The translations under genes were made by a program, and so were the position numbers. A stretch of DNA of 42,964 bases from Candidatus Rubneribacter avistercoris (GTDB taxonomy: Bacteria; Actinomycetota; Coriobacteriia; Coriobacteriales; Eggerthellaceae), in assembly GCA_019115845.1 (NCBI GenBank), contig DXCU01000060.1, positions 1 to 42,964 of the forward strand. Direction: 5' to 3'. Of this stretch, positions 15,330 through 20,338 are shown one piece after another (the stretch's first letter is position 1; the number at the start of each line of letters is the position of its first letter). Under the pieces are notes generated by a model. It had not been told where the DNA came from. It worked only from the letters and a program-made list of their open reading frames with translations, and made no database searches.

Positions 15330-15587
15330 CTGGTCCGCAACGTACGAAGCCCCGGAACGCAAGCAAAGCAGACGCCCGAAGCAGCACACGAGCCGCCACA
15401 TCCACTAAATGGAGCGAACACCCCAATCAGTAGCCAGGTCACCACGCCCGACAAGCAGAACGGGCACCCAAACTGCAACATGCGGCAAACAGAACGAGCG
15501 CCTCGCTGCACGCAACAAAACGAGCGCTTTCCCGCGCATGATAGAATGAGGACAAACGGCAGACCAGCGCGCCGAGGGGAGGGATCG

Positions 15588-16673
15588 ATGAGCGAAGACG
15601 CGTTTCGTTATCTGAAATGGAATGATGACGTCGTGGGCATCGTGCGCCGCGACCTTTCCGTTTCCTTCGTGAACGCCAACCTCAACCCAACAGTGGCGCT
15701 CTGCACTCAGGGCGCGTCGTCATGGGGCTCCTCCGCGTTCCTGGAATTTCTCTCCGAGCGCATTGTCAGCCCGCAACGTCGCGACATTGAAAAGCTGCTG
15801 TTCAGATGCGGCCTTTCCGAATACGACACGTTCAAACTGGCCGATGCGACGCACGCCATTCACCCACGAGACGAACTATGGCTGGCAGCCCGCGCAGATG
15901 ACAAACTCTCCGATGCGACAACCGACGTGTTTGAATCGGTGTTCCTGCACCGCATCGACGCCGAGGGTGACAGCGTGAACACCCCCGAGGGCTTCAACGT
16001 CAAACGCTACGCGGCGTTCGAAGGGCGCTACGGCATTGTCAAGCAGCGCATCAGTCCGCTGACTGCGGACGTTGAGTCCGAGATAGCCGTTTACCTGCTC
16101 GCGCAGGAGATGGGAATCCCCTGCTGCCCCGCACGCCGTTTCGATGCCAACTCCGTGTTCTCGGAGTTCGTATACGATTTCGCCGAGGAGTACCTGGTGC
16201 ACATGCGCAGGCTGTTCAACAGTCCGCGCGGCAAAAACGAGCTGGACAACCTGCTCACGGTGCGGCCTGCATACGCCGACGACTTCTACCGCATGGTGCT
16301 GCTCGACTTCGTCACCAGGCAAGACGACCGACACCTGTCGAACATGGCACTCAAAATCAACACCGAAGGCGAATCGTTCTACCCGCTCTACGACAACGGG
16401 CGCAGCCTGTTCTACGAGGACACCGAGGATATGGTGCGGGCGGCCATCAAAGACCCCGCAACCCACGCCACCACGTTCGGATACGCGGGAACCTACTGGG
16501 ACCACGCGCGCGACGTCGCCGTGGGCGGCGTCAAGTTCGGCGAGCTTGCGAACCTCGACATCTCCGAGCGAACCGTGCAGGCCCTGCTTGAAGAGGCCGG
16601 CTTCACCGGTTACCGCCTTGCCGGTGCCCGCGAATGGATCATGCGCTCCCTCGCCCTCGTGCGCGAGTTGTAA
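15588..16673 (+). CDS. HipA-like kinase-fold protein, solitary
   Basis: A 361-residue protein. The C-terminal half has the landmarks of the HipA/PI3K-like kinase fold: YGIVKQRISPLTADVESEIA (nucleotide-binding side), LLAQEMGIPCCPARR, then the catalytic segment DFVTRQDDRHLSNMAL and a metal-binding loop FYPLYDNGRSLFYED. The N-terminal 140 residues are unlike canonical HipA and are not recognised. No HipB-like HTH partner is adjacent, so it is not an ordinary hipBA toxin-antitoxin. ATG 15588 follows GAGGGGAGG. Solitary HipA-fold proteins may be protein kinases of unknown targets; I am confident of the fold, not of the role. Confidence 0.75.
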   Translation: MSEDAFRYLKWNDDVVGIVRRDLSVSFVNANLNPTVALCTQGASSWGSSAFLEFLSERIVSPQRRDIEKLLFRCGLSEYDTFKLADATHAIHPRDELWLAARADDKLSDATTDVFESVFLHRIDAEGDSVNTPEGFNVKRYAAFEGRYGIVKQRISPLTADVESEIAVYLLAQEMGIPCCPARRFDANSVFSEFVYDFAEEYLVHMRRLFNSPRGKNELDNLLTVRPAYADDFYRMVLLDFVTRQDDRHLSNMALKINTEGESFYPLYDNGRSLFYEDTEDMVRAAIKDPATHATTFGYAGTYWDHARDVAVGGVKFGELANLDISERTVQALLEEAGFTGYRLAGAREWIMRSLALVREL

Positions 16674-18115: not shown

Positions 18116-19216
18116 TTACAGCGATTCCTCCAAATAAACCGGAAGATACTCGCGCAACATAGGCAGGGCGAACGAAAACGTGCCGCGCGGACTAGCGTCT
18201 ATCACTCCGTGCTCCAATAAGCGGCGCTTGTACGTTGACACATGGCCCGACGATTTCCCCAGCCTCTCCATCAACTCCGATGCCTTGCTCACGCGGTCAT
18301 CCGCAAGCATGGCGACCAAAAATTCAAGATCGGCTGCCGATAGCTCGTCAAGCGTCGGACGCAAGACGCGCTCGCTCATGTCCTCTCGGGCACGTTCTAC
18401 CCCTTGCTGCACGTGTTCGAGAGAAACCGTACGCTCATCCCCGGCCGCCTGCCAAAAGCGAAAGCCAACGAGTTGCATCATAAACGGAAATCCCCCGATG
18501 GAAGAAACCGCCGCATCAAGAGCCTTGTCGCCAATAGCTTTCTCCGACAGTTCGACGGTGCCCCGAAGCGCCCGCCGTACGTCAGCGTCAGACACCGCAT
18601 TAAGTCTGTGCTGGCAAGCGCGCCGAAGGAACGACACCGTCTGGTGCCCAAGCAGCCTCGACACCTTATGAGGCAGCCCCGCCATGAGCAGCGACACCTT
18701 GCGCCTTTCACCAACGAAATGCTGATACACCGCCGAAAGCTCAATCATCTCGTCAAGTTCCGGATCCACTTCGTCCACGGTGACAAGCAACCCGACCCCA
18801 TGCTCATGCAGCTTTTCAAGCACATCGGTCATACGACTGCGCCAGTTGCCGGGAGCAGCCGCCGCGTACTCCCACTGCAAACCGAGCGCACGCGCAAACG
18901 TCACACCAGTCAGCCGCACACTCCCCTGCTTTTCAAGCAGATGCGCCCCCTTGCGCAGTGCCTGTTCCAACACATCTTCAAGCATACCCGGAATAGCCGT
19001 GGCATTCACAGCTATCCAACCACGCTGCTCGGCTTCAGCCGATAAATCGAGCAGGAGGGCCGTTTTGCCCGTCCCGCGCGCACCTGTAAAAATGGTGCAC
19101 AGATTCGGATCACCCGGGCCCTCATCAAAAGCGTGCTGCACGTCGGCGAGAATAACCTCACGACCCGCCATCAAAGGCGGCACCTGTCCAAAACTCGGCG
19201 TGAACGGATTACGCAT
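18116..19216 (-). CDS. AAA+ ATPase of the ORC/Cdc6-like (AAA_16) type with C-terminal winged helix
   Basis: A 366-residue protein. Walker A is GARGTGKT (45-52) and Walker B is LLVTVDEVD (143-151), followed by a sensor-like SLLMAGLP. The C-terminal 90 residues (LSAADLEFLVAMLADDRVSKA, LGKSSGHVSTYKRRLLEHGV) form a winged-helix DNA-binding domain. The N-terminal FTPSFGQVPPLMAGRE is a family hallmark seen in many actinobacteria. These proteins probably bind DNA in an ATP-dependent way, but their role is unknown. ATG 19216 follows GGAGATAGGAT. Its upstream region carries seven phased TTTAG/CTAAA motifs, the only such array in the window, which is a natural candidate binding site. Confidence 0.88.
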   Translation of the reverse strand: MRNPFTPSFGQVPPLMAGREVILADVQHAFDEGPGDPNLCTIFTGARGTGKTALLLDLSAEAEQRGWIAVNATAIPGMLEDVLEQALRKGAHLLEKQGSVRLTGVTFARALGLQWEYAAAAPGNWRSRMTDVLEKLHEHGVGLLVTVDEVDPELDEMIELSAVYQHFVGERRKVSLLMAGLPHKVSRLLGHQTVSFLRRACQHRLNAVSDADVRRALRGTVELSEKAIGDKALDAAVSSIGGFPFMMQLVGFRFWQAAGDERTVSLEHVQQGVERAREDMSERVLRPTLDELSAADLEFLVAMLADDRVSKASELMERLGKSSGHVSTYKRRLLEHGVIDASPRGTFSFALPMLREYLPVYLEESL

Positions 19217-19253
19217 ATCCTATCTCCTCTTCCGCAAGTGAACGTTGCTTGCT

Positions 19254-19315
19254 TTTAGATCTTTTAGTTCTGTTTAGTTTCTTTAGGTTGGTTTAGTCTT
19301 TTTAGTTCATTTTAG
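19254..19315. repeat. Seven phased TTTAG (CTAAA) motifs upstream of the AAA+ ATPase
   Basis: TTTAG begins at 19254, 19263, 19273, 19282, 19292, 19301 and 19311, so the intervals alternate exactly 9, 10, 9, 10, 9, 10. The block is AT-rich inside GC-rich DNA and lies 38-99 bp upstream of the ATPase start codon, where on the minus strand it reads as CTAAA. The regular near-helical spacing puts all motifs on about the same DNA face. Confidence 0.85.
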
Positions 19316-19495: not shown

Positions 19496-20338
19496 ATGGA
19501 CCAGCACGCAACCGACCTCGCCTACCTGGTGAACTACCTGCAAGAGGAGCGCGGTATGGGCGCCTCAGCCGTGGAACCGCACGATGATTCTGCATGGTTT
19601 GACCGCACATGGCGGCAGTTCCGCGCGCTCGTCAACACGCGCGAGCCCCTGTCTGCATCCCCTGAGTTCCTTGCTGTGCAAGACCGGTTTTTGCAAGGAC
19701 TCATCGCGCAAGCAGGCGTGACCGACGCCGAAACGCTGCCGCCCTGCCCCGCCGACAAACGGCTCGCGCTCTGGCGCGGCGACATCACCCGCTTGGCCGC
19801 AGACGCCATCGTGAACGCCGCGAACAGCGGCATGCTGGGCTGCTGGATTCCCGGCCACCACTGCATCGACAACGCCATCCACACCTATGCCGGCGTGCAG
19901 CTGCGCCTGGAATGCGCGCGCCTCATGCGCGAGCAGGGCTGCGAGGAACCCACGGGGCGCGCCAAGGCAACACCGGCGTTCAACCTGCCGGCGCGCATGA
20001 TCATCCACACCGTGGGACCCATCGCCAACGGCTCGCCCACCGCCGCCCATCGCGCGCAGCTGGCTCAGTGCTACCGCAGCTGCCTGGACGCCGCCGCGCA
20101 ACACGCCTGCCGCACCATCGCGTTTTGCTGCATCAGCACCGGGGAGTTCGGCTTTCCGCAGCAAGAGGCGGCCCGCATCGCGGTCGCCACCGTGCGCGCC
20201 TGGCTCGACGAACAGCAGGCCCGCCGCCCAACGGACGCGCCAAACGGCGAAACCCTGCCCGCTCGCCCCTTGCGCGTCGTGTTCGATGTGTTCGGGGAGG
20301 CCAACGAGAGCATCTACCGCGCGCTTCTTGGCTTTTGA
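19496..20338 (+). CDS. Zinc-dependent macrodomain protein (protein-ADP-ribose hydrolase)
   Basis: A 280-residue protein with an N-terminal helical extension (1-85) and a macrodomain. DAIVNAANSGMLGCW (103-117) supplies the ADP-ribose-binding loop, and the Zn-macro signature GCWIPGHHCIDNAIHTYAG follows, with Cys116, His121/122 and Cys123 as likely zinc ligands. IIHTVGPI and CCISTGEFGFP close the pocket. Zinc macrodomains remove ADP-ribose from modified proteins; Staphylococcus and Streptococcus members sit in an operon with a sirtuin and lipoate genes, but none of those is seen here. ATG 19496 follows AAGAAAGG. It is divergent from the AAA+ ATPase and convergent with the response regulator. Confidence 0.93.
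   Translation: MDQHATDLAYLVNYLQEERGMGASAVEPHDDSAWFDRTWRQFRALVNTREPLSASPEFLAVQDRFLQGLIAQAGVTDAETLPPCPADKRLALWRGDITRLAADAIVNAANSGMLGCWIPGHHCIDNAIHTYAGVQLRLECARLMREQGCEEPTGRAKATPAFNLPARMIIHTVGPIANGSPTAAHRAQLAQCYRSCLDAAAQHACRTIAFCCISTGEFGFPQQEAARIAVATVRAWLDEQQARRPTDAPNGETLPARPLRVVFDVFGEANESIYRALLGF

Follow-up and report, generated by a model that had tools for sequence, protein, structure and literature searches.

Which protein reads a run of seven short, evenly phased motifs lying ahead of an ATPase gene in Candidatus Rubneribacter avistercoris, and to what effect? The question arises from the window, i.e. the whole stretch of 42,964 nucleotides that was analysed, in which the array was originally predicted, from the letters alone, to serve as an operator or a set of iterons, perhaps with the ATPase itself as the binder.

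The array and the ATPase in the window

The array occupies positions 19254..19315 (minus strand) and is proposed as the operator of the ATPase gene. On the plus strand TTTAG starts at 19254, 19263, 19273, 19282, 19292, 19301 and 19311, in the predicted alternating steps of 9, 10, 9, 10, 9 and 10 bp (mean 9.5 bp). Because the ATPase gene runs on the minus strand (18116..19216, ATG at 19214-19216), the motif is CTAAA on the gene strand, where the array extends from about -38 to -100 relative to the start codon. A probable Shine-Dalgarno sequence, GAGGAG on the gene strand, was read by eye at 19224..19229 (minus strand). Five three-unit matches with 9/10 spacing were present in the window versus none in 100 dinucleotide shuffles of the whole window, and the longest TTTAG chain with such steps counted seven motifs versus three, reached once, in 100,000 shuffles of the local 111 bp. 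Chance as the source of the seven-motif array is excluded. The inter-motif bases differ across the array, also in agreement with the prediction, and all repeats are direct. Inverted ORB elements around an AT-rich unwinding region were not found at the window array, the sole inverted pair nearby being a weak 14-nt match unrelated to the motif. A macro-domain protein gene (19496-20338, plus strand) diverges from the ATPase gene and has the array about 180 bp before its start; the array could also affect this neighbour, which is not conserved elsewhere.

The 366-aa product, our candidate for the array binder, combines a P-loop ATPase, a lid and a C-terminal winged helix in a STAND/ORC fold. That it should carry AAA+ and winged-helix domains had been foreseen, and both Pfam (AAA_22 above cut-off, AAA_16 just below) and an AlphaFold2 model (pLDDT 91, pTM 0.87) agreed with this; no specific family model matched in Pfam, NCBIfam or PADLOC. 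Walker A (GARGTGKT, residues 45-52) is encoded at 19061..19084 (minus strand), Walker B reads VDE, and R198 closes the helix preceding the fifth strand, where AAA+ proteins normally carry their arginine finger; R198 and the key residues of both motifs do not vary among 71 homologous sequences. Over the whole chain, VIA-align placed 2qen (Z 23.3) and 2fna (Z 22.6) closest, followed by archaeal Orc2 (1w5t, Z 21.4), then plant NLR NB-ARC domains (Z about 18) and Orc1/Cdc6, while Foldseek ranked archaeal Cdc6/Orc1 first. The domain order is that of 2qen/2fna and NB-ARC proteins. STAND ATPases are defined by an N-terminal hhGRE-type motif and a GxP motif in the lid. The former is represented here by AGR at residues 17-19 (G18 and R19 invariant) and the latter by GFPF at 242-245 (G242 invariant, third position P or A). 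Judged from the model, the term "ORC-like" is right as to fold, and "STAND/archaeal-type ATPase" describes the protein more closely. No additional domain of sensor or effector type was found in its 366 aa.

Arrays and motifs among homologues

The original prediction proposed looking for arrays of the same motif and phasing ahead of homologous ATPase genes. As the first step, a pattern search for arrays in 100 relatives returned strong arrays at four further places, one of them in the window genome itself; all four lie upstream of ATPase homologues. Then 80 homologues were gathered regardless of array presence. An unbiased search for any 5-mer repeated at 9-11 bp in chains of at least four gave hits in 34 of 80 upstream regions versus 0 of 80 gene interiors. 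The autocorrelation of 82 upstream regions peaked at lags 9-10, 19, 28-29 and 38, as a period of 9.5 bp would produce; that of gene interiors displayed codon periodicity only. A degenerate-motif scan with shuffles, in which steps of 8, 10.5, 11, 12, 13 and 14 were also allowed, called an upstream array in 42 of 50 dereplicated homologues, and all 42 had steps of 9, 9/10 or 10 bp. The same scan called arrays in 0/50 control regions inside genes, 3/50 downstream and 1/48 at -1000 to -820. More distant homologues, kept out of the method set-up, carried arrays in 25 of 40 cases (gene interiors, 0/40), and among nine sampled plasmid homologues (Actinomycetia, Collinsella, Bacillus) the 9/10 pattern occurred in five, strongly in four. 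The spacing was thus conserved, whereas the exact motif was not. This spacing pattern upstream of a bacterial ORC-related ATPase family is widespread and apparently undescribed: no description of the family or its arrays was found in the open-access literature searched, which is weak evidence of novelty.

Arrays in the family comprise 4-8 phased motifs. Their orientation relative to the gene is flipped in one clade (L025, L104) and therefore DNA binding fits better than an RNA element. A recognisable array was absent in the clade with an RVY helix (L036, L040, L041, L050 and L052; Collinsella and Thermophilibacter), which offers a natural negative case. The motifs include CTAAA, GCAAA, CGAAA, GGAAA, GTAAA, ATCAA, TGATAA, TGCTATA and others. 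The window genome alone holds five ATPase copies, one of them truncated, and five motif types: CTAAA; TTTAG at 10 bp; TTCAAA/TGCAAA; TTTAAA/AATCAAG, a weaker array of two pairs only; and AAAGGAA. A further homologue in this genome (G000:C3:37076-38242) matched only in two separate parts and is preceded by an AT-rich stretch without clear array. In some arrays (L029, L091) two half-sites alternate every 19 bp; L031, L061 and L088 are also of the alternating type, exemplified by TGCCTAA/TGCAAAA, and in these either one winged helix may read both half-sites or a paralogue may take the second.

DNA bending by phased A-tracts, or a functionless simple minisatellite, might produce a similar picture, given that many motifs contain AAA and that Collinsella strains differ in unit number by 19 bp (eight units in L045, six in L037). 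Such explanations are hardly credible. The spacing is 9.5 and not 10.5 bp; AGGCGAA, ACTCACA, TGATAGA and TGCTATA are not A-tracts; motif and spacing are kept while the bases in between differ; and the arrays stand beside the ATPase only.

The recognition helix of the winged helix (residues 322-332, SSGHVSTYKRR) is encoded at 18221..18253 (minus strand) and contains residue 328, which co-varies with the motif. With overall protein distance removed, recognition-helix windows were among those best correlated with array sequence (partial r 0.34-0.37, reached by 0 of 500 permutations). Residues 1-10 and 31-40 correlated as strongly, probably through clade history, which was therefore incompletely removed. 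At position 328, Lys was accompanied by G before AA in 16 of 18 dereplicated families, compared with 1 of 44 without Lys, a contrast for which the Fisher test ignores kinship, inflating the p value. One of the two Lys exceptions, L238, is a register artefact, as its upstream region holds GGAAAA repeats. Having emerged from the first set, the rule reappeared in a distant "FSPSFGNRP" subfamily, where GGAA occurs in the Lys members with arrays and not in four non-Lys members. It also separates a sister pair, L033 (K, GGGAAA) versus L053 (Q, GCAAA/GTTAAA). Supported independent pairs on the tree numbered four only, of which three agree and none oppose (sign test p 0.25). A code of one base per residue at position 328 held only for Lys, since Thr and Gln go with several motifs. 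On these sequence comparisons, the array motif appears to track the recognition helix. Binding of the array by the ATPase itself, as originally suggested, thus gains support from the family-wide spacing together with the helix co-variation, and may be narrowed to a private sequence for each ATPase.

Genomic context and proposed mechanism

Three-unit GCAAA arrays in nine genomes were all located at the ATPase and none elsewhere. Outside its two arrays the window genome contained only two stray CTAAA pairs of two units each, a count below that of the reversed control. One motif shared by many promoters was not found in scans that covered multi-unit arrays rather than single motifs; in the genomes tested, multi-unit arrays lie only beside the ATPase. 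No conserved partner gene was found in 55 loci. Where related copies have different surroundings, their alignment is confined to the array and the gene up to its stop codon, e.g. from -76 to +5 in L072/L087 and from -70 to +4 in L075/L102. A HipA-like gene lies near the ATPase in the window (15480-16673, plus strand; HipA_C below cut-off) and, by eye, in G024 (L012 505-1359, minus strand); at the other loci no such gene recurred beside the ATPase.

Distribution of the family is patchy, with multiple copies and many fragments. At one Collinsella locus the gene is present, absent or broken by two shared internal deletions, and in six species-level Collinsella genomes (L283-L286, L290 and L291) the ATPase is broken in this way while the six-unit 9/10 array is almost intact; the gene may have decayed recently, or the array may have a second reader. 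Transposition of array plus gene was considered and rejected: the Collinsella empty site swaps the whole intergenic stretch, and no target duplication was visible by eye. On a plasmid of Bacillus subtilis DK01 and one of Brevibacterium spongiae (L162, L164), the ATPase genes are equally long, have similar TATAAA arrays and are each followed by a hypothetical gene and a recombinase gene; apparently there was transfer between phyla. Affiliation with a known defence system was dismissed, PADLOC matches being weak (best 8e-4) and covering fragments, as was a phage gene, with one distant match each in phage records and viral contigs.

The array that outlasts its broken gene in Collinsella would suit a different host protein as the binder, the ATPase being merely the gene that this protein regulates. 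We regard this as very unlikely, for the motif changes with the recognition helix of the ATPase and differs among paralogues of one genome, and no other gene is conserved nearby. Another conceivable arrangement is an initiator-origin pair, such as archaeal orc/cdc6 beside ORB repeats, in which autoregulation would come second to DNA opening or helicase recruitment by the ATPase at the array. The first rank of archaeal Cdc6/Orc1 in Foldseek and the Z of 21 for Orc2 in VIA-align speak for it, as does the abundance of the family on plasmids (107 records). Nevertheless, it is improbable: single bacterial chromosomes have several ATPase copies along with remnants and empty sites, and therefore no copy looks essential; no helicase or loader was found linked to the ATPase genes; and the arrays are direct repeats over promoter and leader, not inverted pairs around an AT-rich element.

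Regarding the sign of control, a sigma-70 promoter scan of the window array region gave nothing above chance. Promoter placement versus arrays over 49 loci was uninformative, the best matches often falling inside the A-rich motifs themselves. By eye, the arrays of homologues such as L028, L027, L042, L061, L066, L101 and L103 occupy the customary -35 position and are closely followed by a TATAAT-like hexamer. These could be taken for operators through which the ATPase activates its own promoter, a one-gene switch with positive feedback instead of repression. We find this rather unlikely, although less so than an origin, because a -10-like box precedes the array in L051, L056 and L094, and in L045, L063 and L072 the array reaches the ribosome-binding site, where bound protein would block transcription. 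Repression is favoured because many arrays span the stretch between core promoter and ribosome-binding site.

Taken together, the array is probably the private operator of the adjacent gene, bound cooperatively by its own ATPase, autorepressed and ATP-switched, the two forming a self-contained module. Direct binding, a cooperative filament, the ATP switch and repression rather than activation are what we infer for it, in the following manner. Each subunit would read one motif via its C-terminal winged helix, with neighbouring subunits 9.5 bp apart (a 19-bp pair) touching through their ATPase domains. These contacts would set the 9.5 bp per subunit and turn each site by roughly -35 degrees relative to a 10.5-bp helix; owing to them, binding by several subunits would be cooperative and would mask promoter and leader of the ATPase gene itself. 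Enough ATP-bound protein would then shut the gene down, and ATP hydrolysis would release the protein from the array. Array and gene would be gained, lost and passed between genomes as one unit, and since each copy would have drifted to its own motif, paralogues could coexist without cross-talk. The Collinsella arrays beside broken genes and the RVY clade without array count against this private-operator reading.

ORC-like and STAND ATPases are at the base of replication initiation and innate-immune signalling, and for many prokaryotic members neither a function nor a DNA target is known. The dozens of natural protein-site pairs found here, with fixed geometry and changing motif, would make specificity, cooperativity and ATP control testable in small and simple proteins, and the family may supply mutually orthogonal array-binding regulators. 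More speculatively, we may be dealing with a large undescribed bacterial ORC/STAND family, each member with its cognate array as a one-gene module, forming ATP-switched filaments at 9.5 bp per subunit, with a readable code from residue 328 to the base before AA and a role beyond autoregulation, such as marking or maintaining the carrier DNA or sensing invaders.

Comparison with known systems

The best whole-chain structural matches, archaeal STAND/AAA+ ATPases PABY2304 (2qen) and SSO1545 (2fna), share only 14% identity with the protein, and we know of no function or DNA site assigned to either. Rep proteins of iteron plasmids possess two winged helices and no ATPase domain, and their iterons are about 20-22 bp apart; the present system differs from them by its ATPase domain and 9.5-bp steps.

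Orc1-2 of Sulfolobus/Saccharolobus islandicus is a non-initiator ORC that regulates transcription, binding the short motif ANTTTC in its own promoter strongly with ATP and being turned off by hydrolysis (PMC9738581). It resembles our protein as an ORC-like ATPase with winged helix, and own-promoter binding is proposed here from array position and co-variation. Orc1-2, however, uses one motif for many target genes, in contrast to 4-8 phased motifs at one site per genome where tested, and the present family is bacterial and closer in fold to the archaeal Walker ATPases 2qen/2fna. Haloarchaeal origins adjacent to orc/cdc6 provide a second parallel, in which one genome has several paralogues of the gene and each lies next to repeats that match its own protein (PMC3528665). 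The arrangement of several paralogues, each next to its own repeats, is the same, but haloarchaeal ORBs are longer, include inverted pairs and serve replication. BldC of Streptomyces is the third: its winged helix binds cooperatively, in head-to-tail fashion, to direct repeats that vary in number and are spaced by about one DNA turn (PMC5859096). The arrays described here are likewise direct repeats about one turn apart, in 9.5-bp steps; BldC, though, is a MerR-like protein of 68 residues without ATPase domain that regulates many genes, as opposed to 366 aa with an ATPase domain. By analogy, the ATPase/array pair would work like Orc1-2, BldC and the haloarchaeal Orc/ORB pairs, yet it departs from each of them in a defining feature.
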